Positions 9,151 to 23,835 of a stretch of DNA of 50,690 nucleotides are shown piece after piece. Where the stretch lies: the IMG/VR virus record IMGVR_UViG_3300025701_000018, positions 1-50,690 of that record, one strand, 5' to 3'. The DNA is from a virus. Each line of letters starts with the position of its first letter. Within the stretch, counting starts at the first letter, position 1. The notes under the pieces are model-generated. The model was not told the DNA's origin. It ran no database searches and was given only the letters and a program-made list of their open reading frames with translations. A program made the translations under genes and the position numbers.

Positions 9151-9179
9151 ATTAAGATTAGTCTAATTTTAATCTTAAT
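9151..9179 (-). terminator. Inverted repeat at the end of the subtilisin-like gene
   Basis: Arms ATTAAGATTA (9151-9160) and TAATCTTAAT (9170-9179) form a perfect 10-bp stem with a 9-base loop, overlapping the stop of the protease gene. No clear U-run follows on the minus strand. A late promoter for the next gene lies just downstream, so this is a plausible transcript boundary. Confidence 0.45.
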
Positions 9180-11701
9180 CCAGTAAATGTTAATGCAGAC
9201 AATGGCATAGTTACGGGATTTGCAACGCCATATCTACTATATAGGTGTCTATTAGATGCTCCGAGAATACTTTCGTTAGTTGAGTAATCTGTAGTCGAGT
9301 CTGTAGTATATATTACTTCAAGGGCTTCGCCATTTATTCGGTCTTGCATCTGTGCCGGAGTTAAATCAGGTCTAACTTGTAGATGTTGTGCTACTACTCC
9401 TGCAACTTGTGGTGCAGCCATACTTGTGCCGCCAATACTTAGTATTCTAAAATTACTATCTTCCGGCGAAGATATAGAAGAACTACCAAATTGGTTAGTA
9501 GTACTGCATGCACTTACTATGCTTGTGCCAGGCGCCCAAATATTTACTCCTGGTCCACGTGTACTTGAAAATGCTGTCTTGTCTCGAAAAGTTCCGCCGT
9601 CATTAAATGTTGTAGTATCTAAATTGCCTACCATAAACGCATTATCACTATAGGGACTACTTCCTCTATGATAATTAGTAGTAGTTCCCCCAAATGTAAC
9701 TGTATTGTCGTAATCTACTCCGCCTAATAGTTCTGCTTTATATAAATTGTTACCTGCAGCTATGCATACATGAATGCCTTGAGAAATCATATCCTCGATC
9801 TCTGCATCTACACTTGCAACACGCACAGGAACTCGCTGCGAAGTTCCTGAATTAAGATAGTCAGGAGTGTATCCTACTCCTGACCAAAGTCCAAGGCGAG
9901 TTGTGTAATCAATGTCATAATTCCAATCTACTCCTCTGTAGGTTCCGCTATCAGGGGCGCCTGATCTAGTTGTACTGTATCCCCAACTCATATTTACTAC
10001 AGTAGGACGTTTGAATCCCGTTGCCGGGTCTATTGGCTTTGCATCATGCCATAACCTTATTGTATCAAATGCATCTGTAATACTAATTCCTGTGTTGCCG
10101 TCGAATTCAAGTCCTGCTAATTTTTGCGAATATATATGTGCGCCTTTTGCCCATCCGTAAGTTTTACCAGCAGTTATTCCAGCAACATGTGTGCCGTGAC
10201 CGTCCCAGTCTCTATAATGATTAACACTCTGTGTTCCGGACAACCCGCTAGCTGTGTACCAATCAATTTGTTGTACCCGTGATGTGCCTGCCGTAGATAC
10301 CACATATCCCGATACGCCTGCTAGTGCTGGGTTATCTTGTGCTGGTGTATTACCATCACCAAATATACTATTAATAGTGGCAATACTTGGTTTACTAATA
10401 ACCGGAGCGATGTATGAGTTAAAGAGTGCATAACCTAGTGGAAGATTTGTTTGAATTTGTGATGCTGTGCGAACATTATCTGTCCACTCAGGAGCAAGAC
10501 TGTCACCGTCCCATAAGCTAGTGTATTCAAACATACAGAAGTTTAACAAGTACAGATATTCTTTTGCTGCTACTTCAAATGCATCTGCTACAGTTTTAAA
10601 GTTGCTGCCGCCATATCCTGATGGATCCCAAAAGCCGCCATCGTACGCTTCTACCATTGCGTTATATAACGGTCCAGTTGCCCAGTCTGAACTTATTGCT
10701 GCATACATTTTTAATGACACAGCATCAAGGCCGTGCATATGTAGAGTATGAAATACGTGTTCAATTACTTCTTGTGCGTCAATGTCTCCATCGCCGTAGC
10801 CATCGCCTGTTGAATTCAAATACCAAACCATATCATTGGCCGCGTGTGAGTCAAATAATGGTGACAAGTTATAAGAAGCAATACCTTCATCAGTTAAGAA
10901 GTTCGGAGTATAGTCGCTGCCAGCTCCTCTTGCTACTCGTTGTAGTGTTGGGCCTTGGGCTGCGTGATAAGTTCCTGCATCGCCCCTTAGTGTTTTAATA
11001 AATGTGCGTTGTGATGTTTCGTTAATACTTGCTCCGGTTTTGTCAGTAAACAATTCAAACATACGTGCAACCTTTTCAGTCCACGCATCTGGTACTGCTG
11101 TTTGCCCACCTACTGCTCCTGCTGCTACAATTCTCACACCATTAACTGTAACCTCTCGACTGAAGAAGCTACTACCGTTGCCAACTAGATTAGAAATTGC
11201 TCCATTGTTATATTCTGAATCTATAGACCCTGCTATCATAAATTCAGGATGGTCTACTTGTAATCCGCTATCTTGTATTACAACATCTACTCCTGATCCA
11301 TCAACGGCATAATCAAAATTATTATCAGGCGCTGCTGAACTATTATTATATACATTAGTTTGTTCAATGCATCTACGTAGCCCCCAGTTTGCCCAAGTCT
11401 CATTTATTCCGCTTGATCTTGTAAATAATTTATCCGATTGTGTTTTATGCAACCCAATTTGTATGTCGTCTCTTTGATCAATTGGTATTTCTATTGATAA
11501 CACTCTGTCGTCTTGATTTAATTCGGTTACTTCTTCATCAGTAAGCATCCAATGAGTCATACGTTTAGAGCCAAGTCTTGGATTTGCAATAGCTACAGAT
11601 CGATTGGGCACAGGACCTGCGCCGGTTGTTGCTAACAATTCTGCGTCGAATAATTTAAGATCAACACCAGCCTTAACTACAACTGCATATTCTTTTTCCA
11701 T
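9158..11701 (-). CDS. Subtilisin-like serine protease (S8) with a large insertion, probably virion-associated
   Basis: 847 residues. The S8 catalytic triad is complete: D144 (VVIQDSGLQVDHPEF), H502 (DGHGTHVAGITAG) and S760 (GGTSMAAPQVAG). The oxyanion Asn is likely in CIAAGNN. Residues 1-110 resemble an inhibitor or propeptide-type domain (YAVVVKAGVDL, MLTDEEVTELNQDDRVLSIE) followed by WGLRR. The distance between Asp and His is about 358 residues instead of the usual 35-50. An insertion at about 180-440 is helix-rich, with acidic DGYGDGDIDAQEV followed by IEHVFHTLHMHG. There is no signal peptide. It starts one base after the stop of the preceding structural gene, which carries the late promoter, so it is probably made late and carried on the tail. 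Likely roles are digesting host surface protein or maturing fibres; both are inference. Confidence 0.85.
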   Translation of the reverse strand: MEKEYAVVVKAGVDLKLFDAELLATTGAGPVPNRSVAIANPRLGSKRMTHWMLTDEEVTELNQDDRVLSIEIPIDQRDDIQIGLHKTQSDKLFTRSSGINETWANWGLRRCIEQTNVYNNSSAAPDNNFDYAVDGSGVDVVIQDSGLQVDHPEFMIAGSIDSEYNNGAISNLVGNGSSFFSREVTVNGVRIVAAGAVGGQTAVPDAWTEKVARMFELFTDKTGASINETSQRTFIKTLRGDAGTYHAAQGPTLQRVARGAGSDYTPNFLTDEGIASYNLSPLFDSHAANDMVWYLNSTGDGYGDGDIDAQEVIEHVFHTLHMHGLDAVSLKMYAAISSDWATGPLYNAMVEAYDGGFWDPSGYGGSNFKTVADAFEVAAKEYLYLLNFCMFEYTSLWDGDSLAPEWTDNVRTASQIQTNLPLGYALFNSYIAPVISKPSIATINSIFGDGNTPAQDNPALAGVSGYVVSTAGTSRVQQIDWYTASGLSGTQSVNHYRDWDGHGTHVAGITAGKTYGWAKGAHIYSQKLAGLEFDGNTGISITDAFDTIRLWHDAKPIDPATGFKRPTVVNMSWGYSTTRSGAPDSGTYRGVDWNYDIDYTTRLGLWSGVGYTPDYLNSGTSQRVPVRVASVDAEIEDMISQGIHVCIAAGNNLYKAELLGGVDYDNTVTFGGTTTNYHRGSSPYSDNAFMVGNLDTTTFNDGGTFRDKTAFSSTRGPGVNIWAPGTSIVSACSTTNQFGSSSISSPEDSNFRILSIGGTSMAAPQVAGVVAQHLQVRPDLTPAQMQDRINGEALEVIYTTDSTTDYSTNESILGASNRHLYSRYGVANPVTMPLSALTFTGLRLKLD

Positions 11702-12460: not shown

Positions 12461-14005
12461 TTATCCTAAATGCCATTCAACACCTTGTTTAGGATTAAAC
12501 TTAATATTATTATTTTTAACTAACTTTATATGATCAGCACAGCTATAATGCGTTAGTTTTTTAGTTTCTGAAAAATTATTAAGTTTATTTAAAAAATACT
12601 CAGCATCACTAATTGCTTGCTGATCTAAATAAGTTGAAGTTACTTTAGATGTTAACTGATTAGTTCCTAATAAAACATAACACCAAATAAGCCACCCGGC
12701 AGCACCGGGGTAACTAGGAAAATCAAATTTTGTTGGCATTCTTGATTTACACATTTCTTTTAAATCGTTAGCATAGTCAGTTGCTGATTCATGTGTTATA
12801 TATTTCCAAAATTCAGTATCAGTTCTACCACCTAAATAATGAGAAGATAAAAAGTCTTTAAAGTCGTCATACATTTTATTAATTCGCTGATTGCACAATT
12901 TAACTGATGCAGGATTAATTGTTTCGTCTATTGTTGGTCGAAGAAACTCAAATGTAAGATGTGCCAAGGACTTTATAGTTGAATGTACCGAAGTAGCTTC
13001 AAGAGGTTCAGAAAACCCAGATGCTAGTCCTATAGCAAAACAGTTTCCGACCCAGCTATTTGCAAGGCGTCCGCTATCAAATTTTATAACTTTAATTGGA
13101 TCAACTTTTCTTCCTAATGTTTGTTCAATTTCAGCGTGAGCTTGATCTACAGATATAAAGTCATCCGAAAATACATAGCCACATCCTTTTCTATGCTGAA
13201 CAGCAGCTTCCCAATACCATCCGGCATTTTGTGCTTGTGCTACACTATAAAATTTAGGAACTTCGTCTTCGTCGTGATCAAGGAAAAATGGAATTGCAGT
13301 ATTTACAGGCAAATGTTTTTTATAACTAATCCAATCATCATCTAATTCTTTTATTAATAATCTAGAAAACCCAGTGGCATCTATAAAAAAGTCTGCTGAT
13401 ATTTTTCTATCATTCTCTAACACAACAGATTGCAGTAGACTGTTACTTGACTTTTCTACTCTTTTAATCTTACTGTCTATTAAATTACAATTTGTAAAAT
13501 TCAAAGCTATTTTTTCAAGATAATCTGCTGCTAATTTTGCATCGAAATGAAACGCAAACGTAGAAATGTCAAACGCATTAGTTACTTTACTAATTGGTGA
13601 TATTTCACGTTCAAAAAGATTTCCATAAAAGGATCCTAAATGAACATTGTTTGGATTAAATGTTGATTGATATGCTAGTAAGCTATCTGGCAATTGAAGA
13701 CCTGTAAGAGTACCATCAATGGGACCAAAGTAAGCTGCATCTTTTATTGTACTCCAGTTTTTATGTAGAATGCCGTATTTCGGCATTGCTCCTGTTTTCA
13801 TTAAAAAGTCTTGAGGATCTATGCCAAAATCACCATAGTGGCCTGTAATGACATCCATCAATTCACCAGTAACTCCTTCTCCTGCTCCGATAACACCAAT
13901 TTGAGATGATGCTATAACAGTCACATTGTGTGCTGGATGATTCTTTGAAATAAATAATGCTGCTAGCCAACCTGCAGTGCCGCCTCCGGCAATAATAATG
14001 TTCAT
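12461..14005 (-). CDS. Flavin-dependent tryptophan-halogenase family protein (divergent copy)
   Basis: 514 residues of the FADH2-dependent halogenase family, which uses O2, halide and reduced flavin to form a lysine haloamine that halogenates an electron-rich ring. Visible features are the GGGTAGW FAD loop (7-13), GAGEGVT (about 40-46), a conserved lysine K76 matching catalytic Lys79 of PrnA, and SEPLEATS with E336 matching Glu346. The family WxWxIP signature is altered: GWYWEAAV instead of W-x-W-x-I-P. The length is close to PrnA (538). No flavin reductase is visible nearby, so the host or another phage gene would supply FADH2. It is transcribed divergently from the oxygenase at 14081 and carries no late promoter. 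It could be a halogenase or a flavin monooxygenase-like relative. Confidence 0.85.
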   Translation of the reverse strand: MNIIIAGGGTAGWLAALFISKNHPAHNVTVIASSQIGVIGAGEGVTGELMDVITGHYGDFGIDPQDFLMKTGAMPKYGILHKNWSTIKDAAYFGPIDGTLTGLQLPDSLLAYQSTFNPNNVHLGSFYGNLFEREISPISKVTNAFDISTFAFHFDAKLAADYLEKIALNFTNCNLIDSKIKRVEKSSNSLLQSVVLENDRKISADFFIDATGFSRLLIKELDDDWISYKKHLPVNTAIPFFLDHDEDEVPKFYSVAQAQNAGWYWEAAVQHRKGCGYVFSDDFISVDQAHAEIEQTLGRKVDPIKVIKFDSGRLANSWVGNCFAIGLASGFSEPLEATSVHSTIKSLAHLTFEFLRPTIDETINPASVKLCNQRINKMYDDFKDFLSSHYLGGRTDTEFWKYITHESATDYANDLKEMCKSRMPTKFDFPSYPGAAGWLIWCYVLLGTNQLTSKVTSTYLDQQAISDAEYFLNKLNNFSETKKLTHYSCADHIKLVKNNNIKFNPKQGVEWHLG

Positions 14006-14031
14006 AATTAAAAGTATATCCTTGAAAAAGT

Positions 14032-14054
14032 TATATATAGTAGTAGTATATATA
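14032..14054. promoter_or_regulatory. Palindromic AT-rich divergent promoter region in the island
   Basis: The 75-base gap between the divergent halogenase and oxygenase genes holds TATATATAG, a TAGTAG spacer and TATATATA, nearly symmetric. A very similar sequence (ATATATATAGCAGTATATT) lies in the other divergent gap at 16742-16760. No ATAAATA late element is present. I read these as shared, non-late promoter or operator sites. Confidence 0.4.
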
Positions 14055-14080
14055 AACTTATAGTCGGAGGCTACAGCAAA

Positions 14081-14689
14081 GTGGAAATTAATATTAGCAA
14101 AATGTTTTCTGCATTTTTACTAAAAGAAGAGTTAACAGTAATGGATAACGCTGACTTAGAAAAATATGGCTATGAGATAAAAAACAAAGAAACAGGAGTT
14201 GTTAAGAGCAACTATCATGCTTGGCAAAGTGATGTGTTAACAGCACCTAGTCAACAAATTAATTTATTAATTAATAATATTTTAGAAAGATTAAATGCTT
14301 CAAAATCTATATTAGGGTTTCGAGAAGATACTCACATTTATATGAATAATATATGGATGAATATAAATCCTAAAGCTAGTTTTAATAGGCCTCATATTCA
14401 TGCAGATTCTACATTTTCAGGAGTTTACTATGTTAAGTGTAATGATAAAAGTGGAAACTTATGTTTTAAGCACCCTTCAATGGCACATCAATTTATTATT
14501 AAAGAAGAAACTGTAGACCAATACACAGACGATCTTGCATCTCATTGGACAATATATCCCAAAGCTGGAACATTAGTTATATTTCCTGCATGGTTAGAAC
14601 ACTACGTAGAACCAAATACTAGTGATGAAGATAGAATATCAATAGCTTTTAATGTTGCAATTGATAAAATACAAAATATAAAGGAATAG
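14081..14689 (+). CDS. 2OG-Fe(II) oxygenase (TIGR02466-like)
   Basis: A 202-residue double-stranded beta-helix oxygenase. The facial triad is clear: H107-x-D109 in RPHIHADS, and H174 in PAWLEHYVEP, followed by R185 in EDRISIAFN for 2-oxoglutarate binding. FSGVYYVKC and GTLVIFP are typical strands of this marine family. Such enzymes hydroxylate, halogenate, desaturate or demethylate small molecules or side chains; the substrate here is unknown. The start is a GTG at 14081, with GGAGG at 14066-14070; an ATG at 14102 would remove seven residues. It ends one base before the second halogenase gene, so the two are co-transcribed and probably functionally linked. Confidence 0.82.
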   Translation: MEINISKMFSAFLLKEELTVMDNADLEKYGYEIKNKETGVVKSNYHAWQSDVLTAPSQQINLLINNILERLNASKSILGFREDTHIYMNNIWMNINPKASFNRPHIHADSTFSGVYYVKCNDKSGNLCFKHPSMAHQFIIKEETVDQYTDDLASHWTIYPKAGTLVIFPAWLEHYVEPNTSDEDRISIAFNVAIDKIQNIKE

Positions 14690-14690
14690 A

Positions 14691-16154
14691 ATGTCAAAAA
14701 GAAATTTTGCAGTATTAGGTGGCGGCACAGCTGGATGGATTACAGCCCATAGTGTACGAAAAATGTTTCCTGATGATAATGTTACTATAATTTATAGTGA
14801 AGAAAAGGGCATAGTCGGTGTTGGAGAAGCAACAACTCCTCATATAATTAATTTTTTAAGGAGCATAGATGTTGATATATTTGACTTTTTAAAAGAAACA
14901 GGCGGTTCAATTAAACATGCAATCAACTTTGAGAATTGGAACGGCGACGGTAAAAAATACTACCACCCCTTTGTTGAAAATATTGCAGAATTTTCTATTC
15001 CAGGTATTTTCGATTTTGGTTGCTGGGATCATTATAATCGAGCATTAATTAGTAAAACTCTTCCAGTTGAAGATTACTTATATCAAGCTAGACTAGCCCA
15101 AGAGAATAAAATTGATTTACAAAATACTAACTATGCATTACACTTTAACACTTATAAGTTTGGCCAATATTTAGAAAAAATTGGCGTAGAAAGAAATATT
15201 ACTGTTATTAAAGACGATTTTCACACAGCTAATTTAGACGAAAATGAAAATATCAAAGAGCTTGTTTTAAACAATAGCACAGTTAAATGTGACTTTGTTT
15301 TTGATTGTTCAGGATTTCACAGGGCACTAATTGGCAATGTGTATAAACAGTCATGGGTGTCGTATAAGAAACACTTGCCAATGAAAAAAGCTATAGCATT
15401 TTGGCTAAAGTCGGAAACAGCATGTGCGCCTTATACGTCGGCTATTGCAATGAAGTATGGGTGGATGTGGAAAATTCCATTACAAGATCGAATCGGCTGT
15501 GGGTATGTTTATGATTCTGATTATATTAATGAAGAACAAGCAGAGGCAGAGGCAGAAGAATTTTACGGGCAGCCTCTTGAAATAAGAAAAACGCTAGACC
15601 TTAATGCAGGAAGATTTGAAAATGCATGGGTAAACAACTGCATAGCTGTTGGATTGTCTAGTAACTTTATTGAGCCGTTAGAATCTACATCAATATGGTT
15701 GCAATTAAATGTAATGTCAAACTTAAAGGATTTCTTAGGTGAGATTGATTCATTAGATGAAAAAAATATTGAATTGTTTAATAAGATAACTGCTAACGAT
15801 GTAGACGAAAAAATGAATTTTGTTTACTTACATTATTTAGGTAAGAGAGACGATAGTCCTTTTTGGAGAGAATTTAAAGAAAAAAATCCTATGCCAGAAA
15901 AGCTAGCATCTATCATGCCTCGTATCAAGGAAGGCAATATAAAATACCACCACCTTGGTGTTTTTGACTGTCGTTCTCCATTTCCGCTTATGAGCTATTT
16001 ATGGATATGTGGAGGTTTAGAGTTATTTGAAAAATCATTATCAATCAACGGATACGAAAGATTAGATCCTAGTCCTGAAATGTATAAAGAAATTATTAAT
16101 CAGCGTATGCAGGATTCTGCTTTTGATCAACGAACGGTGTTATCATCCTTATAG
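14691..16154 (+). CDS. Flavin-dependent tryptophan-halogenase family protein (canonical copy)
   Basis: 487 residues with all family hallmarks: GGGTAGW (10-16), GVGEATTPHI (43-52), catalytic lysine K75 in GGSIKHAINF, the intact W-x-W-x-I-P signature in GWMWKIPLQDR, a DCSGFHR flavin segment, and E331 in FIEPLESTS, equivalent to PrnA Glu346. It is therefore expected to be an active flavin-dependent halogenase; in seawater both chloride and bromide are available. It has a good SD (AAGGA) and is one base downstream of a 2OG oxygenase. It differs clearly from the other halogenase in the window, so the pair is not a recent duplication and may act on different positions or substrates. The substrate is not identifiable from sequence. 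Confidence 0.92.
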   Translation: MSKRNFAVLGGGTAGWITAHSVRKMFPDDNVTIIYSEEKGIVGVGEATTPHIINFLRSIDVDIFDFLKETGGSIKHAINFENWNGDGKKYYHPFVENIAEFSIPGIFDFGCWDHYNRALISKTLPVEDYLYQARLAQENKIDLQNTNYALHFNTYKFGQYLEKIGVERNITVIKDDFHTANLDENENIKELVLNNSTVKCDFVFDCSGFHRALIGNVYKQSWVSYKKHLPMKKAIAFWLKSETACAPYTSAIAMKYGWMWKIPLQDRIGCGYVYDSDYINEEQAEAEAEEFYGQPLEIRKTLDLNAGRFENAWVNNCIAVGLSSNFIEPLESTSIWLQLNVMSNLKDFLGEIDSLDEKNIELFNKITANDVDEKMNFVYLHYLGKRDDSPFWREFKEKNPMPEKLASIMPRIKEGNIKYHHLGVFDCRSPFPLMSYLWICGGLELFEKSLSINGYERLDPSPEMYKEIINQRMQDSAFDQRTVLSSL

Positions 16155-16155
16155 T

Positions 16156-16710
16156 TTATATAAATGTAAAAACTACAACATATCTAAACTCGTTTATTTT
16201 AGGAAATTGATGAGCATGTAGTGTGTTTTCAAAAGCACATGCATGGAATTTTTTTGCAGGAAACTGTTGTGTTATATTGTAGTCAGTGTCAAACAATAAA
16301 GTTGCTGCATCATTATCGTTAAGATACATTATCCAATTCCAATGAGGCCATTCGTGGTCATAATGAGGTACTGAAAAATCTTTATCGTTATGCAATGTAA
16401 GGTTTAAGCCTGCTCGATAGATTTTACTCGGAAGTTCTAAATTATTTTGTTTAATCCATCTGTAGAAAATATTTTCAAACATATGATAATATTCACTATT
16501 AATATTGCCAGGCACAGTAGGATCGCTTGTATTACGCAACATTAGAGCATGGCCAAAAAAACCGTTATTACCTACACTATCTTTTATTGCGTTATCAGGT
16601 TCAAAATCTGTTTGAAAATCTTGTTTATACCATGCCATTGATGGACCTAATACAACTTTAGAAATAAAATTAATTTCGTTTTCTGTTAACTCTACTTCGT
16701 TGTATACCAT
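16156..16710 (-). CDS. 2OG-Fe(II) oxygenase-like protein
   Basis: 184 residues from the ATG at 16710, chosen because GAGG lies about 6 bases upstream; an in-frame TTG at 16722 would add four residues but overlaps the SD. H116-Y-D118 (SVPHYDHEWPHW) is the HxD metal motif. H165 or H167 (TLHAHQFP) and R176 (EFRYVVV) complete the triad and the 2OG-binding Arg. TLLFDTD and PAKKFHACAF are strand segments. It ends two bases after the end of the convergent halogenase gene and starts opposite another oxygenase. Substrate unknown. Confidence 0.72.
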   Translation of the reverse strand: MVYNEVELTENEINFISKVVLGPSMAWYKQDFQTDFEPDNAIKDSVGNNGFFGHALMLRNTSDPTVPGNINSEYYHMFENIFYRWIKQNNLELPSKIYRAGLNLTLHNDKDFSVPHYDHEWPHWNWIMYLNDNDAATLLFDTDYNITQQFPAKKFHACAFENTLHAHQFPKINEFRYVVVFTFI

Positions 16711-16741
16711 ATTTAACCTCAATCTTTACTAGTACGACTAC

Positions 16742-16760
16742 ATATATATAGCAGTATATT
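16742..16760. promoter_or_regulatory. Second AT-rich divergent promoter region in the island
   Basis: The sequence ATATATATAGCAGTATATT lies between two divergent oxygenase genes and resembles the site at 14032-14054 (shared core ATATATAG, then AGTATAT). No late element is present. A promoter or operator role is inferred from the similarity and position. Confidence 0.38.
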
Positions 16761-16778
16761 ACTATAGGATTAATTAAA

Positions 16779-17411
16779 ATGACTAATACCTTTGTACAAA
16801 ATTTTAACAACTACGGAATACTAACTCGTCAGTTCACGTCTGAGGAACTGTTGCCGGTGCAAAATGAAATAGAAAAAATAAAAAGTAATTTTGAATCTTC
16901 AATTTCTATGAATACTTCACTAATTGGAAATATAGAAAAGGAGTACAGGTTATTAGATTCTAAAGATCATTTAGAAAATTTAATTATGCCATTAGTAAGA
17001 GATTATGACAACACTTATAATTACCTTAGCCGATCAGTGGTGCTTTTGCAAGATGTACCGTTAAGATTAACAAATGCTTGGGTAAATTTTCAATCGAAAA
17101 ACGAGTTTAATCCTAATCACGATCACGATGGCATTTTTTCTTTTGTGATTTGGACGCATGTTCCTTACAATATGAATACTGAGAAGGATTCTGCACCAGG
17201 AAAATATTCTAAAAATAATCTAGCAGGAGCTTTTGAATTTCAATATACAAATATCTTAGGTGACATTCAATCTCACACTATTCACATAGATAAGTCTGTA
17301 GAAAATACTATTGTATTATTTCCTGCAAAACTAAGACACTGCGTTTATCCATTCTACACATCAAATGATTATAGAATTAGCGTGTCTGGAAACTTTATGT
17401 TAACTTTATAA
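16779..17411 (+). CDS. 2OG-Fe(II) oxygenase-like protein with an H-D-H metal motif (type A)
   Basis: 210 residues, clearly paralogous to the gene at 20490-21116: LTNAWVNFQSKNEFNPNHDH and GIFSFVIWTHVP match VNNVWVNFQEKYEFNPVHDH and GVFSFVIWVTLP. The conserved metal region is NPxHDHxG, with H114 and H116. This gives H-x-H where most relatives have H-x-D, although D117 in this copy could also serve. The distal His is H187 (LRHCVYPF) and the 2OG Arg is R199 (DYRISVSGN). Tandem position with the carbamoyltransferase gene (17-base gap, SD AGGA) suggests coordinated expression. The fold call is strong; the chemistry is unknown. Confidence 0.78.
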   Translation: MTNTFVQNFNNYGILTRQFTSEELLPVQNEIEKIKSNFESSISMNTSLIGNIEKEYRLLDSKDHLENLIMPLVRDYDNTYNYLSRSVVLLQDVPLRLTNAWVNFQSKNEFNPNHDHDGIFSFVIWTHVPYNMNTEKDSAPGKYSKNNLAGAFEFQYTNILGDIQSHTIHIDKSVENTIVLFPAKLRHCVYPFYTSNDYRISVSGNFMLTL

Positions 17412-17428
17412 TTTTAGGAACTACCAAT

Positions 17429-19132
17429 ATGAACATATTAGGAATACAAAAAGATCATAATTCGTCAGCGTGTTTGTTTGTTGATAATGAACTAGTGTAT
17501 TATAATCAAGAAGAAAGACTTTCTAAATTTAAGAAAGATGCCGGATTGCCAATTAGAACACTACAAGAGATACTCAAGATTGAGTCTACTATTGATGTAT
17601 TAATACTTTCAGGATACGATTCAATCTTTACAGAAAATTTATCAATAATAAATATTATCGAAAAATTAGGATTTACTCGTGGAATAGACTTTAAATTCGA
17701 ACCTTACTATCATAGTCATCATCTGTCTCATGCTGCTACTGCATTTTATAATTCTAAGTTTGATAATGCTCTAGTATTTATAAGTGACGGAAAAGGAGCA
17801 ACATATAATTTAGACAATGGTGATCAGGCACAAGAAACTACATCGATCTTTACTGCATCCTATCCAGATCAGTTTGGTTTAGTTTATAGAAGATTTTTTA
17901 CTCATTCAAAGGATTATCAAAATGCATCTGTTGTTTGGGATAATGCATTTACTGTTGACAAAAAACTCCCTCCTAGATATCTTAGAAAAAAATCTATCAT
18001 AGAAATAAGAAATGATTATGATTTAGGATTTATGTACGAAGGTACTTCTCGAAGTATGGAATTAGACGACGAAGGCGGCAAACTAATGAGCCTCCAAACC
18101 TTTGGTGTTAAAGACAATTCTCTTCCGCCAGTACTAACCGAAGACGGAAAATTTAATATGGATATATTTAAGTTTGACGAATTTAATAGACATAGAGGGT
18201 TTGATATCGGCAAATATCCATCACTTACGCACCAAGAACAAAAAATTAATTTTTCATCTCAGATACAAGCAACATTTCAAAATATTGGTCTAAATTTAAT
18301 AAAAGATATGTTAGACAAGACAGGTGAAAAAAATTTAATACTATCTGGCGGTACTGCATTAAATGTAGTTGCAAATAGTTTTTATAGAAAAAATCTTCCT
18401 TCGGATATTAATCTTTATATAGAGCCAATGTGTGGCGACGAAGGAAATTGTATAGGGTTATGTCAATACTATATACAAACTGAAACCAAGGCAACAGAAA
18501 TTAAAAAACCGTTATCTATTTACTTAGGCGGACATCGGCCTCAATACGAATATTCTTTAAAAGAAAACGAATTTGAAATTAAAGATGCTGACGAAATACT
18601 GATTACAGATTTAATTCGAGCAGGGCATGTTGTAGCGTTATATCAAGGCTGTGCAGAAGCAGGCCCAAGAGCATTAGGAAATCGTAGTTTTTTATATGAC
18701 CCTAGAGTTGTCAACGGAAAAGACGTAGTAAATAAGCTAAAATATAGAGAACCGTTTAGGCCGTTTGGTGCTGTAGTAATGCAAGAGCATGCAAGTGATT
18801 GGTTTGAGCTAGATAAAATAAAAGAATCACCATTTATGATGTATGCAGTTGATATAAAAGATCAAAAATTTAATCTAATTCCTGCTGTAACACATGTAGA
18901 CAATACTTGCCGTATTCAAACTGTTACAAGAGAACAAAATCAACACTTACATAATTTATTAAAAACGTTTAATGATGAAACAGGTATTCCAATGTTACTT
19001 AATACTTCGTTTAATCTTGCAGGCAAAGCGATTGTAGAAACACTTGACGATGCAATATTTGCACTCAGAGAATCTAGTTTTGAATATCTATATCTTCCTG
19101 AAATTAAAACAGTACTATATATTAAAAATTAA
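17429..19132 (+). CDS. O-carbamoyltransferase of the NodU/CmcH/TobZ family
   Basis: 567 residues, full length for the family (TobZ is about 570). These enzymes transfer a carbamoyl group from carbamoyl phosphate, through carbamoyl-AMP, to a hydroxyl of a sugar or natural product. The N-terminal Kae1-like domain starts MNILGIQKDHNSSACLF and has the metal-binding HxxxH in YHSHHLSHAATAF (H97, H101), then FISDGKG and SGGTALNVVANS. The C-terminal YrdC-like domain has GCAEAGPRALGNRSFL, REPFRPFGAVV and MLLNTSFNLAGKAIVET. All recognisable motifs are intact. Carbamoylation needs a hydroxyl acceptor, which neighbouring oxygenases could create. Its end overlaps the convergent gene by four bases. Relatives occur in some marine T4-like phages; the substrate is unknown. 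Confidence 0.9.
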   Translation: MNILGIQKDHNSSACLFVDNELVYYNQEERLSKFKKDAGLPIRTLQEILKIESTIDVLILSGYDSIFTENLSIINIIEKLGFTRGIDFKFEPYYHSHHLSHAATAFYNSKFDNALVFISDGKGATYNLDNGDQAQETTSIFTASYPDQFGLVYRRFFTHSKDYQNASVVWDNAFTVDKKLPPRYLRKKSIIEIRNDYDLGFMYEGTSRSMELDDEGGKLMSLQTFGVKDNSLPPVLTEDGKFNMDIFKFDEFNRHRGFDIGKYPSLTHQEQKINFSSQIQATFQNIGLNLIKDMLDKTGEKNLILSGGTALNVVANSFYRKNLPSDINLYIEPMCGDEGNCIGLCQYYIQTETKATEIKKPLSIYLGGHRPQYEYSLKENEFEIKDADEILITDLIRAGHVVALYQGCAEAGPRALGNRSFLYDPRVVNGKDVVNKLKYREPFRPFGAVVMQEHASDWFELDKIKESPFMMYAVDIKDQKFNLIPAVTHVDNTCRIQTVTREQNQHLHNLLKTFNDETGIPMLLNTSFNLAGKAIVETLDDAIFALRESSFEYLYLPEIKTVLYIKN

Positions 19133-19881
19133 TCTTTAACTATAAATTGATGATTTGAAAGATATTTTCTCTCAGTTTCTTTTTGTTTAATGTCAGCATC
19201 ATAGTCTAATATTTCAATGCTGTCATTGTTGTCTCTAACAGCAATAATTTGAAACAACGGAGTACCTGCAGGAATACTAAATTCTTTATTGTTAGAATTG
19301 CATTTGATAATTGCATTTACTTCATAATGTTTTCCGGGCCCTAATATACCATGCACCGATACAAAATCTGTTTGGTCAGGATACGGAATAGGCATAAAAA
19401 TTAAATTCCATCCGTTAGGCACTGACACAGCCCAAGGTAGTGTTATCTTAATTAAGGATTGTAATTGAGAATTAGGTAATGGTATTGCGTGAGCAGGTTC
19501 TTCTTTAGAAAACCAACTAATTAGTTGTTTATCATACCCTTTATCTCTTAAATAAGAATATAACCCTTGTGGTATAAAAAACTCGAACCTATTAGCATCA
19601 TCAGTTAATCGTATTGTAAGATCAAACCACGACTGCATTATATACCCTTTTCGCATCATTGGTAAAACACCCGGACACCTTACAGTTCCTGATATTTGTT
19701 CATACGAAGATTTTTCTTTAGAAATTTCTTTAAATTTCTTAGCTGACTCTTTAACCCAATTAAATTTATATTTGCTAGCTTCTATTACAGGATAGTTTTC
19801 TTTAACTTCAGGCAATTCGCAATAGAATTTGATTTTAGGGCTATTAAAAAATTTATTATAAATTGTTTTATACATATTCAT
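19129..19881 (-). CDS. Unrecognised island protein, 250 residues (faint DUF6065 resemblance)
   Basis: I cannot name a function. It has no signal peptide or membrane segment. After a basic N-terminus (MNMYKTIYNKFF) come WVKESAKKFKE, GTVRCPGVLPMMRKGYIM, a beta-rich core with LPWAVSVPNGWNLIFMPIPY and GPGKHYEVNAIIKC, and FSIPAGTPLFQIIAVR near the C-terminus. The W-x-V-P-x-G-W / IPAGTPLFQI layout suggests a small beta-sandwich and faintly recalls the DUF6065 family; this is a weak memory-based match. It is 13 bases downstream of an oxygenase gene on the same strand, with no strong SD, so it is probably the last gene of the minus-strand oxygenase operon. Confidence 0.5.
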   Translation of the reverse strand: MNMYKTIYNKFFNSPKIKFYCELPEVKENYPVIEASKYKFNWVKESAKKFKEISKEKSSYEQISGTVRCPGVLPMMRKGYIMQSWFDLTIRLTDDANRFEFFIPQGLYSYLRDKGYDKQLISWFSKEEPAHAIPLPNSQLQSLIKITLPWAVSVPNGWNLIFMPIPYPDQTDFVSVHGILGPGKHYEVNAIIKCNSNNKEFSIPAGTPLFQIIAVRDNNDSIEILDYDADIKQKETERKYLSNHQFIVKD

Positions 19882-19894
19882 ATATAATGTGTTA

Positions 19895-20476
19895 TTACCA
19901 AGCCCAGGCTACAAAACTATAACGAGATCCTTTAGTAACAGTTGTTACTTCGTGTGGATACATAAAATTACTAGGAAATACTAATACCGATCCTTGATCA
20001 AATAATACTTTTTCTTCTTCCCAAAGTAGGAAGTCGCCGCCTTCGTAATCATTATTAAGTAATCCAACAATTGATAATAACGGAACTCCTTGGCGTTCAC
20101 CGTCAAATATATCATGTATATGATCACAATGTAATTTCATATTAGTGCCTTGATCATACTTGTGAAATTTTACTCCAGTTGTTCCCATCCAGGTTCCGAA
20201 CCACTTAAACTGCTTGTAGTATGATGCATGATCTTTCATTATATATTGTTCAACTACTTGATATATAGTTTTGTCGATATGTTCTTGCTGTGCTGACATT
20301 TGATTAGAATGTAAAAAATCGTTACCGACAGCAATATATTCTTTATCACTATTATAAAACTGATGTTCATTCCATTCGGCTGATTTTAAAGTTTCAATTG
20401 TGCTTTCGCAAAACTCTTTTGTGAAAACATTTTTATATAATTTTGCATAGTCTTTAATATTATTAGGGAAATTCAT
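19895..20476 (-). CDS. 2OG-Fe(II) oxygenase (prolyl-4-hydroxylase-like)
   Basis: 193 residues. The facial triad is H116-C-D118 in MKLHCDHIHD and H175 in MYPHEVTTV, with R185 in KGSRYSFVAWAW for 2OG. The segments LSIVGLLNNDYEGGDFLLW and GSVLVFPSNF are typical of P4H/PKHD-type hydroxylases, in which a 'Y-x-GG-x-F' strand precedes the metal His. SD AAGGA is present upstream. It belongs to a minus-strand run of four consecutive oxygenase genes (19895-22290) with the unknown gene at 19129 downstream. The substrate could be a peptide side chain or a small molecule. Confidence 0.85.
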   Translation of the reverse strand: MNFPNNIKDYAKLYKNVFTKEFCESTIETLKSAEWNEHQFYNSDKEYIAVGNDFLHSNQMSAQQEHIDKTIYQVVEQYIMKDHASYYKQFKWFGTWMGTTGVKFHKYDQGTNMKLHCDHIHDIFDGERQGVPLLSIVGLLNNDYEGGDFLLWEEEKVLFDQGSVLVFPSNFMYPHEVTTVTKGSRYSFVAWAW

Positions 20477-20489
20477 TTTCTAGTGTTCC

Positions 20490-21116
20490 TTATATTTGAA
20501 AAACAATATTGCCTGATACACTAACTCTGTACTGATCAGACGAATAAAACGGATGCACTGAGTGCTTCATGTGAGATGGAAATAGCAACATGCAATTTTC
20601 AAAAGATTCATCTGCCGGTATATCGTATTCACGTATATTACCTAAGACATCTGTATAATAAAAACAAAAGTGGCCAGCTAACGGACTTTTAGATTTGGCT
20701 CCTGGAGAATTTTCAATTTCGTCTCTAATATTAAACGGAAGAGTGACCCAAATAACAAAACTAAATACTCCAGAATGATCATGGACTGGATTAAACTCGT
20801 ATTTTTCTTGAAAATTTACCCATACGTTGTTTACCCATAAAGGAAGATTACCAGACAAATAAGATTGTGTCTTAAGATAATCAAACGACTGGTTATATTG
20901 TCTTACATATTGTTCCATTAATTTATTAATGTAATCATGGCACTTAGTTAATTTGTATTCTTTTTTTATATTTCCAACTAAAAATGAATTAGCTTTAGTA
21001 GAAATATCAAAGTTTTCTTTTATTTCATCAATTTCTTGAATTATCGGTACCATTTGATCATCAGTAAGTTCAATCTTTAAAAATCCTGTGTTAGGAAATT
21101 GTATAGTTTCTATCAT
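20490..21116 (-). CDS. 2OG-Fe(II) oxygenase-like protein with an H-D-H metal motif (type A paralogue)
   Basis: 208 residues from the ATG at 21116, chosen because it forms an ATGA overlap with the upstream stop; a TTG at 21134 is less likely. It is paralogous to the gene at 16779: shared NFQEKYEFNPVHDHSGVFSF, SPLAGHFCFYYTDVLGNI, LLFPSHMKHSVHPFYSS and QYRVSVSGNI. The metal region is H112-D-H114 with Ser following, so no HxD is present in this copy. H185 and R197 supply the distal His and the 2OG Arg. Two such paralogues in opposite halves of the island, each next to other oxygenases, suggest old duplication within the cluster. Confidence 0.78.
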   Translation of the reverse strand: MIETIQFPNTGFLKIELTDDQMVPIIQEIDEIKENFDISTKANSFLVGNIKKEYKLTKCHDYINKLMEQYVRQYNQSFDYLKTQSYLSGNLPLWVNNVWVNFQEKYEFNPVHDHSGVFSFVIWVTLPFNIRDEIENSPGAKSKSPLAGHFCFYYTDVLGNIREYDIPADESFENCMLLFPSHMKHSVHPFYSSDQYRVSVSGNIVFQI

Positions 21117-21637
21117 AGTTTTGAATCTGTCCAATTATAATACATAAAGTTTATTAAACAACGAACTTTTTGATCTGTACACGTAGATCCGGTATGTAAC
21201 GTATCACCATCAAATATCACTAATCTATTTTCAATTGATTGAACTTTAGTGCCGTCATCAAAAATTGTATATCCGTTATTAGTGTTTACATAAAAGATAG
21301 CAACCTTCCCGTCAAAATTGTCGTTATCGTAGTGCCACTCACTTTCTTTTATTGCGTTTGATTTTGGTCGAAGATTAGCTTTAATTCTAACAATTGCCGA
21401 CGGGTTTAGTATTTCTAATATAGGAGTTAACACATTGTGTAAATCGCTTACTTTCCCAATATTATGTTTATAAGCTGAGTGTGTAAATTGAAAATCATCT
21501 AAATCATTTCTTAAATCATTGCCAGGTGATGCTATAAAATCATTATAATACCAATCTAAGTTTGCCCCAAGCATAATATTCTTTATTTTTAAAAATTCAT
21601 CTTGTGGTAAGCAATTATCAATTATTTTATAGCTCAT
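21113..21637 (-). CDS. 2OG-Fe(II) oxygenase-like protein
   Basis: 174 residues. H102-Y-D104 (SEWHYDNDNFDG), H148 (GDTLHTGSTC) and R159 (KVRCLINFMYY) fit the 2OG oxygenase triad and 2OG-binding Arg, and GKVAIFYVNTNNGYTIF is the typical strand pair. It resembles phage and bacterial oxygenases of about 170-200 residues found in marine phages. It starts by an ATGA overlap with the preceding PKHD-type gene and ends by an ATGA overlap with the next, so these genes are translationally coupled. Substrate unknown. Confidence 0.78.
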   Translation of the reverse strand: MSYKIIDNCLPQDEFLKIKNIMLGANLDWYYNDFIASPGNDLRNDLDDFQFTHSAYKHNIGKVSDLHNVLTPILEILNPSAIVRIKANLRPKSNAIKESEWHYDNDNFDGKVAIFYVNTNNGYTIFDDGTKVQSIENRLVIFDGDTLHTGSTCTDQKVRCLINFMYYNWTDSKL

Positions 21638-22290
21638 CTAAATTTAGGTCCTAACACCCATACTACTAAAGATTTTCTAACACCTTTTGTAACAGGTGCA
21701 ATTCGATGTAATTGAAAGGAAGGAAACAATATCAGTGTACCTTTTTTCATTTTAACCGAATCAATATTATTTTGGTGGCCCATTTGAAATTCCCCTCCGG
21801 TAAAATCTTCTTCTGGATCATTTAATAATAATGTTAATGATAGTTTTCTAGTTTCTGAATATTGGTCTTTAGATTTTGGTCCGTAGTGTGTATCAACATG
21901 CCAATTATAGTGTCCATTAACACTACTATGATATTCCGTATATTGATATTGGTCATATCCATTTAAATCAAAATTGTACCAACGATTATTACATTCTTCA
22001 ATAAGATAATTTAACCTTTCAAAGACCCATCTATTTTGATCATTTACAGTATTAAATGCTACTTGCGAAGTGCGAACAGTTTCATTTAAAGTAGGAACTA
22101 GCCCATCTTTGGCATTATCTTTGGCAGAAGGTTTGCCTCCAATAGCACCGCTACTTAACCCATTTGATGACACTTCACAAATTTTTTCAAGTTCTTCAGA
22201 CGAAAATGCATCGTTCCAATAAACATATGGAAATAGAATTTGTTGCCTTTCTTCAGGTGTATTTGATATTTTATTATAGTTATAACTCAT
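21634..22290 (-). CDS. 2OG-Fe(II) PKHD-type hydroxylase (PiuC/YbiX-like)
   Basis: 218 residues with a standard PKHD-type layout: GHYNWHVDTHYGP (H131-x-D133), RKLSLTLLLNDPEEDFTGGEFQ, KKGTLILFPSFQLHRIAPVT (H195) and KGVRKSLVVWVLGP (R205). Bacterial PiuC/YbiX proteins are linked to iron uptake, and many marine phages carry homologues of unknown substrate. It is first in a run of four coupled oxygenase genes on the minus strand. It is the only island gene with a recognisable late element, and that element lies inside a hairpin that covers its SD (22292-22331), so its expression may be switched by which promoter makes the RNA. Confidence 0.88.
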   Translation of the reverse strand: MSYNYNKISNTPEERQQILFPYVYWNDAFSSEELEKICEVSSNGLSSGAIGGKPSAKDNAKDGLVPTLNETVRTSQVAFNTVNDQNRWVFERLNYLIEECNNRWYNFDLNGYDQYQYTEYHSSVNGHYNWHVDTHYGPKSKDQYSETRKLSLTLLLNDPEEDFTGGEFQMGHQNNIDSVKMKKGTLILFPSFQLHRIAPVTKGVRKSLVVWVLGPKFR

Positions 22291-22291
22291 G

Positions 22292-22331
22292 AATACCTCC
22301 GCTACTATTGATATTTAGTAGCGGAGGTATT
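22292..22331 (-). promoter_or_regulatory. 16-bp perfect hairpin holding a late promoter and covering an SD
   Basis: Arms AATACCTCCGCTACTA (22292-22307) and TAGTAGCGGAGGTATT (22316-22331) pair perfectly around an 8-base loop. On the minus strand the 3' arm contains SD GGAGG (22296-22300), five bases before the ATG of the PKHD gene. CTAAATA (22318-22312) lies across the loop. Read-through RNA from upstream would hide the SD; RNA started at the enclosed late promoter would lack the 5' arm and leave it free. The hairpin may also end transcripts of the upstream structural gene. Confidence 0.68.
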
Positions 22332-22351: not shown

Positions 22352-22843
22352 TTATGGTTTCGGTATCCAAGTACCTCTAAGATCACTATATCTATATGTT
22401 TGTCCATCTGTAGGATATGACGGCAACCCTAAATCTACTGTTGTAGTCACTACTACTACCCATCTTTCTTCATTAAAATCCCAAACATATACTTGTCCAT
22501 CGTCTGGCATAGGGGGTGGCTTGTGGGTACATGTGTCTGCATCAAAGGACCAGTCTGGATGACCGCCGCTACTAATCCAAGATTCTTTTACAGCATTTTG
22601 TTTTGCTGTAATTTCATCAGCGGTCATACTAGTAACAATCAAACTATCAGTAACTGTGTCTCCATCCCAAATATATGATTCAGTAAGAGTTTCGTAAGTT
22701 TCTAATCTAGGACGTTCTAGTCTAATAAACGGAGCCCAGTCGTCTGGTAAATTGTTTATATCAATGTCAGGATATGCTGTTATAAAGTTATCAGCTAGGA
22801 TGGGATGCCCATGCGGCTGTCCATTTAATATTTTAATATACAT
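22352..22843 (-). CDS. Conserved T4-like marine phage structural/fibre-associated protein
   Basis: 163 residues. The N-terminus MYIKILNGQPHGHPILADNF resembles a family often found beside tail-fibre genes in marine T4-like phages. A middle helix (ADEITAKQNAVKESWISSGG) and two 'DG-x-x-Y-x-(W/Y)' modules follow: DDGQVYVWDFNEERWVVV and TDGQTYRYSDLRGTW. It could be a fibre-tip or chaperone-like protein, comparable by position to gp38-type genes. Its start overlaps the stop of the adjacent glycine-rich gene (TAATG), linking the two. Confidence 0.58.
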   Translation of the reverse strand: MYIKILNGQPHGHPILADNFITAYPDIDINNLPDDWAPFIRLERPRLETYETLTESYIWDGDTVTDSLIVTSMTADEITAKQNAVKESWISSGGHPDWSFDADTCTHKPPPMPDDGQVYVWDFNEERWVVVVTTTVDLGLPSYPTDGQTYRYSDLRGTWIPKP

Positions 22844-23835
22844 TATAAATTTCCCGTATTAGTTGACGGATATGCTCTAGTTAGTGTATTTCCCCATAAC
22901 ACTCTTACAGCACCCGGATATCCATCGCCTGAACATGCTGGCCAACTTGTGCCAGGGCCACCGCCGCCTCCGCCGTAAGCGCCGCCTTGTTGGTTGTTCG
23001 AGCTTTCGCCTGAGCTGCTCCATGGATTTTCGCCGTAGTATCCTCTTGTGCCGCCTGAGCCGCCATTGCCGCCGCCCCCTGGCGATCCAGTAGTGTTCCA
23101 CGGAGTATAAAATCCAATCCCAGATGGCCCTTCACCAAAAATACCAGTGCCGCCGCCGGCGCCTGTGCCATATGTACTTGAATAATTGTTGCCGCCAGCG
23201 CCGCCGCCGCCAGAACCATTTGATCCGCGATCGCCGCCTTGCCCTGTATATCCACCTGCGCCTGCCCCGCCGGCCCAGTCATTGCAATTGCCGCCTGCTC
23301 CGCCACCGTCGCCTACGTAGCCGCCGCCTCGCGAATTACCAGAAGGACCACCTGTTTGCCCCGAGGCTGAGCCGCCGCCGTATCCTGCAACTGTTGAAGT
23401 AGATTGAAAATAACTAGTGCCGCCGTTCTGCCCGTTGCCGCCGCCTCCGCCGACTACAACTGTATATCCTTGCCCTGGAGTTACTGGTATACTATTTTTC
23501 CATCCTAGTCCAGCACCTGCACCGCTGGGATTAGCCCAATTGTTTTGGCCGCCGCCGCCACCTCCGATACACATTACTTGAACTTCCATCACCCCCGCAG
23601 GAGCTGTCCAGGTGTACGTACCTCCACTAGTATATTCACTTTGTCCCGGCAACACTGCGGGATCACTTAAAGCGATTTGTTGCCAGTCTGTGCCGTTGTA
23701 CCCTTCATACCAATTTTCGGTTGTATTATATCGTATCATGCCAGTAGTCGGGCTACCTGGGCGCTGGCCGTCTGTCCCTTTGGGCAATTGAAAATAACTA
23801 GTATCATTAATTATTGTGTTCTTAAGATTTGCCAT
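22843..23835 (-). CDS. Glycine-rich tail fibre adhesin
   Basis: 330 residues. The N-terminus carries the common fibre module (LPKGTDGQRPGSPTTGMIRY followed by NTTENWYEGYNGTDWQ). A beta module (GGTYTWTAPAGVMEVQVMCI) then leads into about 200 residues dominated by poly-Gly runs separated by short Ser/Asn/aromatic segments, ending GAVRVLWG and a short tail. This resembles receptor-binding adhesins with polyglycine helices packed in a sandwich (as in S16/T2-like gp38 tips), although no homology is shown. The coding DNA is locally GC-rich because of GGN and GCC codons. A late element lies 24-30 bases upstream, inside the preceding gene. Confidence 0.7.
   Translation of the reverse strand: MANLKNTIINDTSYFQLPKGTDGQRPGSPTTGMIRYNTTENWYEGYNGTDWQQIALSDPAVLPGQSEYTSGGTYTWTAPAGVMEVQVMCIGGGGGGQNNWANPSGAGAGLGWKNSIPVTPGQGYTVVVGGGGGNGQNGGTSYFQSTSTVAGYGGGSASGQTGGPSGNSRGGGYVGDGGGAGGNCNDWAGGAGAGGYTGQGGDRGSNGSGGGGAGGNNYSSTYGTGAGGGTGIFGEGPSGIGFYTPWNTTGSPGGGGNGGSGGTRGYYGENPWSSSGESSNNQQGGAYGGGGGGPGTSWPACSGDGYPGAVRVLWGNTLTRAYPSTNTGNL

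Follow-up and report, generated by a model that had tools for sequence, protein, structure and literature searches.

Tailoring enzyme genes beside the tail fibre genes of a viral genome fragment: a putative module for decorating phage attachment proteins

Introduction

What a marine phage might do with a whole set of natural product-tailoring enzymes is the question raised by an eleven-gene island at positions 12461-22290 of a virus fragment from IMG/VR (record IMGVR_UViG_3300025701_000018; 50,690 bases, the whole of which is referred to here as the window). According to open reading frame (ORF) calls and Pfam/PHROG searches, the island encodes two flavin halogenases, seven proteins with a 2-oxoglutarate (2OG)-Fe(II)-oxygenase fold, one O-carbamoyltransferase and one phrog_7084 protein. 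Since similar sets stand beside fibre-tip genes in many phages, the likeliest role of these enzymes is to decorate attachment proteins of the phage itself. Specifically, gene neighbourhoods, protein families and structural models lead us to propose, with middling confidence, that they post-translationally modify the receptor-binding tip of the tail fibre.

Dense enzyme islands as such are already known, and what is new here is their anchor at the fibre tip. For the cluster of the jumbo cyanophage S-SSM6a, a role in capsule decoration or secondary metabolism has been suggested (Iyer et al., 2021; PMC7824862), ten 2OG genes are known from S-CREM1 (PMC9964418), and Fe(II)-dependent oxygenases are among the commonest genes in metaviromic islands of marine phages, where they were classed under host recognition (Mizuno et al.; PMC3909814). 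Published roles proposed for such enzymes also include nitrogen sensing, DNA repair (PMC3037559), and antibiotics. Our search, which was limited to open PMC papers, found none that names the fibre tip as a halogenase substrate. If the proposal is true, tip decoration would be a sequence-independent route to altered or protected host recognition, which bears on the native substrate of viral halogenases (VirX1) and on the role of many marine-phage 2OG oxygenases. To our knowledge, a halogenated virion protein would be the first of its kind.

Enzyme islands adjoin fibre-tip genes

The island and its right-hand flank comprise the following features:

12461-14005, minus strand: flavin-dependent halogenase HAL1, 514 amino acids (PF04820, E 7e-87)
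14081-14689, plus strand: 2OG oxygenase OG1 (PF13759, E 2e-27; HxH...H...R)
14691-16154, plus strand: flavin-dependent halogenase HAL2, 487 amino acids (PF04820, E 2e-106)
16156-16722, minus strand: 2OG-fold protein OG2 of the phrog_274 type (phrog_274, E 3e-22; HxD...H...R)
16779-17411, plus strand: 2OG oxygenase OG3 (PF13759, E 2e-9)
17429-19132, plus strand: O-carbamoyltransferase of the NodU/CmcH/TobZ type (PF02543 and PF16861)
19129-19881, minus strand: phrog_7084 / DUF6065-like protein with a predicted dUTPase-like fold (phrog_7084 the sole family match)
19895-20476, minus strand: 2OG oxygenase OG4 (PF13640, E 1e-12; relative of the PKHD hydroxylase PiuC, E 0.005)
20490-21134, minus strand: 2OG oxygenase OG5, similar to OG3 (PF13759, E 2e-7)
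21113-21637, minus strand: 2OG-fold protein OG6 of the phrog_274 type (phrog_274, E 2e-48; HxD...H...R)
21634-22290, minus strand: 2OG oxygenase OG7, relative of PKHD-type hydroxylases (PF13640, E 3e-16; PiuC, E 1.5e-9)
22292-22331, minus strand: perfect 16-bp hairpin at the boundary of fibre and enzyme genes, with the OG7 ribosome-binding site in its 3' arm (z -8.6)
22352-22843, minus strand: small gene separating the adhesin gene from the island (163 amino acids; weak phrog_7759 match, E 0.004)
22843-23835, minus strand: Gly-rich tail-tip/adhesin-like protein (30% Gly, 10 Trp, 19 Tyr; phrog_4474/phrog_863 matches)
23836-50675, minus strand: tail fibre and baseplate genes, in the direction of OG7-OG4 (PHROG tail-fibre/baseplate-wedge matches for several ORFs)

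To the left of the island lie gp13-like, virion protein, gp15-like, NUDIX, baseplate-connector-like, and subtilase genes. To its right, on the minus strand, follow the small gene, the Gly-rich protein and then the fibre and baseplate genes, and OG7, OG6, OG5, OG4, and the phrog_7084 gene are co-directional with the fibre genes and directly downstream of them. Neither a backbone synthetase nor a carrier protein, a transporter or a flavin reductase was recognised, and Pfam/PHROG searches of the eleven genes returned no sugar-nucleotide gene or glycosyltransferase and no sugar-modifying, methylase or cupin match.

The order of Gly-rich fibre tip, small gene (~135-220 amino acids), and enzymes recurs in unrelated phages: it is found in the window, in seven cyanophages (Syn9, S-RIM44, P-RSM6, S-SZBM1, P-TIM40, S-WAM1, and S-CREM1), and in the pelagiphage HTVC008M. 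In the cyanophages, the first halogenase is preceded by one small protein and between one and three Gly-rich proteins, which contain 21-25% Gly and belong to phrog_863 in both phages tested. These small proteins are homologous to each other and match phrog_1787 in all four tested; homology to the small gene of the window was not detectable, and the sole link is the weak phrog_7759 match of the latter. HTVC008M carries a run of 2OG genes behind the genes for a phrog_2295 protein, which is Gly-rich, and a phrog_7759 protein, and phrog_7759 occupies the same slot in this phage and in locus L009 as the small gene does in the window.

Halogenases may also alternate with tip genes. On the 269-kb viral contig L032 (3273-16288), a collagen-like fibre, a 117-amino-acid protein, a halogenase, a Gly-rich tip, a 177-amino-acid protein, and a second halogenase are followed by five 2OG genes interspersed with a few unassigned ORFs, and all of these lie on the same strand with short gaps between them; in L037 (4934-11016), halogenases likewise alternate with a Gly-rich phrog_2295 protein on one strand. 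In S-SRM01, the halogenase lies between a fibre gene and the gp37-gp38 adhesin tip, in P-SSM2 it adjoins fibre assembly genes, in the actinophage DSL-LC01 it is one gene away from collagen-like genes, and in P-RSM4 a carbamoyltransferase and four 2OG genes follow the fibre genes. If each layout is counted once, halogenases adjoin fibre genes in about half of their placements among isolates. A general rule by which halogenases lie at fibres was rejected; fibre labels cluster only weakly on the halogenase tree (4 changes vs. 5.7 after shuffling).

Loci that are rich in enzymes contain such a gene more often: of 64 halogenase loci that span 9 kb or more, a Gly-rich, aromatic-bearing ORF is present in 6 of the 17 with at least three enzymes and in 1 of the 47 with fewer (P 0.001). 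In Syn9, two halogenases and seven 2OG genes fall within a 22-gene fibre-side stretch of a 232-gene genome, which thus holds 7 of its 11 2OG genes (P 7e-6). S-CREM1 has a single halogenase, a JmjC protein, and seven or more genes that carry a 2OG oxygenase annotation.

The composition of the island is a mosaic

Co-occurrence of the enzymes was scored within 10 kb in the 38 gp15-anchored loci whose downstream sequence was long enough (the gp15 set). 2OG genes are present in 12 of these and a halogenase in 6, and the remaining loci run into fibre or other genes. With the window excluded, at least two 2OG genes accompany the halogenase in 4 of 5 loci and occur in 4 of the 32 loci that lack one (P 0.005, in a test that ignores kinship among loci); with both the window and locus L088 excluded, P is 0.018. 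The carbamoyltransferase is associated neither with 2OG genes (P 0.37) nor with halogenases (P 0.51). L088 itself (gp13-, vs1+, gp15+, HAL-, 2OG+, HAL+, CT+, five 2OGs, where signs denote strands and CT the carbamoyltransferase) retains most of the window's set in the window's order, HAL1-2OG-HAL2-CT-2OGs. Elsewhere, enzyme sets vary between phages. Fibres with CBM modules were considered as partners of the island and rejected, because most CBM fibres of the gp15 set lack an island.

The first-pass annotation of this DNA had stated that marine phages carry single members of such sets and had taken the density in the window for a dedicated pathway, in which one scaffold could be modified stepwise. 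This is half right, as dense islands are known (S-SSM6a, S-CREM1, Syn9, P-RSM6). The refuting condition set in that annotation, co-occurrence of the genes across related phages no higher than chance, has a mixed outcome: L088 preserves the gene order and halogenases do travel with multiple 2OG genes, but gene sets differ, and the lack of association of the carbamoyltransferase leads us to reject a strictly co-inherited pathway. The data thus support a modular, exchangeable decoration module and do not support a fixed pathway acting on one scaffold.

The phage backbones that carry such islands differ as well. The gp15 protein of the window is closest to those of the jumbo phages PA5oct and Phosso (~32% identity), not to those of cyanophages, and megablast of positions 1-25000 against phage isolates gave no match. 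Since gp15 points to jumbo phages and the enzymes to pelagi- and cyanophages, enzyme set and backbone seem, as far as sequence similarity tells, to have different histories. An adhesin-linked layout that is common to cyanophages, a pelagiphage, and the jumbo-like window phage suggests a single, testable answer, namely the fibre tip.

Comparison with known systems

The window combines halogenase, carbamoyltransferase, and 2OGFeDO genes beside fibre/structural genes, as do clusters of the type described by Iyer et al. In S-SSM6a, and in the same region of S-SSM7, halogenase, carbamoyltransferase(s), and 2OG enzymes likewise stand side by side between the tail fibre genes and gp13. However, these clusters include sugar genes, a methylase, a cupin, two carbamoyltransferases, and one halogenase, whereas the window has two halogenases of different clades, seven 2OG genes, a dUTPase-fold protein, and a PA5oct/Phosso-like gp15 backbone. 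The island of Syn9 and Syn10 (VirX1-type halogenase, PDB 6QGM) places two halogenases, DUF7084, and 2OG genes right after Gly-rich tip genes, and Syn10 has a Syn9-like halogenase/DUF7084 locus; in contrast to the window, this island lacks a carbamoyltransferase, and the window halogenases belong to other clades. HTVC008M shares with the window the Gly-rich tip, the phrog_7759 gene, 2OG genes, and the closest relative of HAL2 among isolates, but its halogenase sits between terminase genes. Viral 2OG enzymes that act on collagen-like proteins are exemplified by vCPH of PBCV-1, a structural match of OG1, and by L230 of Mimivirus. Unlike the window, these eukaryotic viruses combine a different 2OG family with neither halogenase nor carbamoyltransferase.

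Active sites of the island enzymes

ORFs, family matches, and motifs agree with the first-pass annotation that ten of the eleven adjacent genes belong to three tailoring families with largely intact catalytic residues, and the enzyme assignments and the absence of a scaffold synthase hold; the exceptions lie in one halogenase motif and in the HxD motif of three oxygenases. Both halogenases match PF04820 over their whole length and contain GGGTAG (GxGxxG). The catalytic lysine (equivalent to RebH K79) is K76 in HAL1 and K75 in HAL2, and the glutamate of PLEST (equivalent to RebH E357/PrnA E346) is E336 and E331, respectively. By the PF04820 match, GxGxxG, and the equivalents of the catalytic Lys and Glu, both can be assigned from sequence as flavin-dependent halogenases. 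WxWxIP is intact in HAL2 (WMWKIP) and degenerate in HAL1 (WYWEAA). Their HMMER alignments to RebH-type tryptophan halogenases stop before the C-terminal substrate region. In the halogenase tree, HAL1 groups with the copies of L088, L159, and L160, and HAL2 falls in the clade of HTVC008M, whose halogenase is its closest isolate relative (44%). A recent duplication is rejected because HAL1 and HAL2 sit in two clades, each beside its L088 counterpart. A pattern scan with HAL1 alone returned no relatives. Among viral halogenases, VirX1 of Syn10 has known halogenating activity and a large, accessible active site that takes bulky substrates (PMC8407142). As a side observation, lone halogenases in small-gene regions off recognised fibre genes (L022, L029, L035, L059, and similar loci) are followed by a small hydrophobic ORF of ~94 amino acids.

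An HxD motif with distal His is present in OG2, OG4, OG6, and OG7. OG2 and OG6 remain below the Pfam cut-off and were assigned via phrog_274 and HxD...H...R; the residues of OG2 (H120/D122/H169/R180) are kept across 24 homologues, and those of OG6 are H102/D104/H148/R159. The families of OG2 and OG6 conserve the 2OG-binding Arg, which was seen by eye in OG4 and OG7. In the PF13759 members OG1, OG3 (H114/H116/H187/R199), and OG5 (H118/H120/H191/R203), HxH replaces HxD and is invariant, together with the distal His and the Arg, in 32 aligned sequences. The canonical carboxylate metal ligand of the triad is therefore absent, and the invariant HxH...H makes a three-His metal site possible; HxH is common to the solved, uncharacterised relatives PDB 3bvc/2rg4. 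The AlphaFold model of OG1 (pLDDT 90) predicts a 2OG-type fold, and the 2OG enzymes that match it include protein hydroxylases, namely P4H:EF-Tu, PHD, and the viral collagen prolyl hydroxylase vCPH, a resemblance that would suit a protein substrate.

Cyanophage proteins recorded as 'DNA endonuclease V' (phrog_274) belong to the 2OG oxygenase family with HxD...H...R; such proteins occur in L004 (Syn9 gp51, gp53), L176, L178, and L180, and in the window as OG6 and OG2. The label 'ferrochelatase' (phrog_3531) looks just as doubtful in such islands, and the same may hold for 'minor coat protein' (phrog_1644).

The carbamoyltransferase consists of a Kae1-like N-terminal (PF02543) and a YrdC-like C-terminal (PF16861) domain, has GdmN and TobZ among its PDB relatives, and resembles cyanophage copies most closely. 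HxxxH (H97/H101), D120, and D337, which by analogy with TobZ we take to be metal ligands, are invariant in alignment A4. A related carbamoyltransferase, HypF, has a protein substrate.

Homologues of the phrog_7084 protein were found in 14 isolate phage records, where their genes overlap that of a tryptophan halogenase or come directly after it; the best that Pfam offers is a weak DUF6065 match in one relative. A dUTPase-like fold is predicted by the AlphaFold model (pLDDT 80), whose top Foldseek rows are dUTPase/dCTP deaminase-dUTPase (E 5e-4; VIA Z 10.8 over 132 residues against dUTPase, root-mean-square deviation 4.4). However, dUTPase motif III (G[IV]ID) reads GILG in the window copy, and inspection of this sequence by eye revealed no motif V. 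Because the motif III Asp is absent, the protein is probably not an active dUTPase. A partnership with the halogenase is conjecture.

Proposed function and alternative explanations

We envisage the island as a recombining module of protein-modifying enzymes that is attached to host-recognition genes. Of the substrates listed in the first-pass annotation, which ranged from host metabolites to nucleic acid, gene neighbourhoods favour the phage's own fibre proteins. Late in infection, the 2OG oxygenases might hydroxylate residues on the distal fibre or adhesin, the likeliest target being the tip protein encoded at 22843-23835, which is rich in Gly and bears Trp and Tyr. Exposed aromatic side chains of this protein could be halogenated by HAL1 and HAL2, and the carbamoyltransferase could act on hydroxyl groups that the oxygenases introduce or on those of an attached sugar. 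Such decoration might widen the chemical repertoire of the receptor-binding tip or shield it, although both the benefit for adsorption and the order of the steps are conjectural. A bolder version, in which unrelated phage lineages trade a cassette that hydroxylates, carbamoylates, and halogenates the tip, with the dUTPase-fold phrog_7084 protein as a substrate-presenting halogenase partner, is tentative and somewhat unlikely.

Several observations weigh against decoration of the fibre tip. Lone halogenases often sit away from fibres, and halogenases lie apart from them in S-H35, S-MbCM6, the Syn1/S-PM2-type locus, S-SCSM2R, S-H38, and many freshwater loci. The seven cyanophages have one common layout and may count only once. 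Since L010 and L012 are near-copies and L032 and L037 are related, the P values are optimistic. In the gp15 set, Gly-rich ORFs are unlinked to islands (1/10 vs. 1/32, P 0.42, in sequences that end at 10 kb). Moreover, fibre regions are recombination hot spots, so that adjacency can arise without common function.

Accordingly, the island could be a cargo hot spot, at which independent accessory enzymes with varied small-molecule or protein targets gather without acting jointly. The mosaic composition, the unassociated carbamoyltransferase, the halogenases found alone elsewhere, and the hypervariability of host-recognition regions in marine phages (PMC3909814) fit this explanation. Yet Syn9 keeps its photosynthesis and carbon genes elsewhere and fills the fibre-side stretch mostly with oxygenases, halogenases, and DUF7084, a halogenase and multiple 2OG genes co-occur, and in L032/L037 the halogenases are interleaved inside the fibre operon; we regard a mere gathering of cargo as fairly unlikely. 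Alternatively, the enzymes might modify lipopolysaccharide, capsule or a sugar precursor of host-surface or phage origin, e.g., as a barrier to superinfection; the carbamoyltransferase would then have sugars as substrates, as NodU/TobZ-type enzymes do. Capsule decoration is one option favoured by Iyer et al. (PMC7824862), and in S-SSM7 and S-CAM1 the carbamoyltransferase accompanies heptose kinase/adenylyltransferase, phosphoheptose isomerase, and epimerase genes. A glycan target is nevertheless quite improbable for the window, whose island has no sugar-nucleotide gene or glycosyltransferase match and whose halogenases would target aromatic rings. Even in S-CAM1, the carbamoyltransferase and heptose genes are flanked by fibre genes and then followed by gp13, which makes fibre glycosylation as likely as decoration of a host glycan. 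The carbamoyltransferase and heptose genes of both phages (L005, S-SSM7; L186, S-CAM1) lie at the fibre-gp13 junction, a possible case of fibre glycosylation with a carbamoylated sugar.

A halogenated, amino acid-derived secondary metabolite, i.e., an antibiotic, signal or toxin, is the published view for S-SSM6a (PMC7824862) and for cyanophage prnA (PMC2984593; PMC9964418). For the window we consider it very unlikely, as neither synthetase nor carrier protein, transporter or flavin reductase is recognised, gene sets vary, and the RebH-type alignments of HAL1 and HAL2 end before the substrate region. Modification or repair of DNA or nucleotides, or control of 2-oxoglutarate/nitrogen, has been brought into play by the proposal of DNA repair and 2OG sensing (Sullivan, 2010; PMC3037559), and the 2OG genes of Syn9 do adjoin uvsY/uvsW and uvsX. 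The predicted dUTPase-like fold of the phrog_7084 protein would also suit such a role, but GILG stands at the site of the motif III Asp, the island lies within a structural module, no partner that modifies nucleotides turned up, and halogenases are not known to act in these processes, all of which makes this explanation most improbable.

Boundary elements and additional observations

At the boundary between fibre and enzyme genes, the perfect hairpin has an 8-nt loop, and its 3' arm contains the GGAGG of OG7 immediately 5' of the ATG. Conceivably, it hides the OG7 ribosome-binding site or separates fibre from enzyme expression; no such hairpin was found at the same boundary in relatives. Counts of the T4 late-promoter motif TATAAATA were below chance and uninformative, and a scan for promoters and terminators stayed at chance level. 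The island is AT-richer than most of its flanks (30-34% G+C over 14-22 kb).

The subtilase (PF00082) in the tail region, at 9158-11701 on the minus strand, retains Asp, His, and Ser motifs (DSG at 144, HGTH at 502, and GTSMAAP at 758), with a large insert between the Asp and His motifs that contains HVFHTLH. Subtilases gave 14 matches across the loci analysed and often adjoin gp15. Among the fibre genes, 25046-32446 (minus strand) encodes a fibre-like protein of 2466 amino acids with five CBM_5_12 modules of the chitin-binding type.

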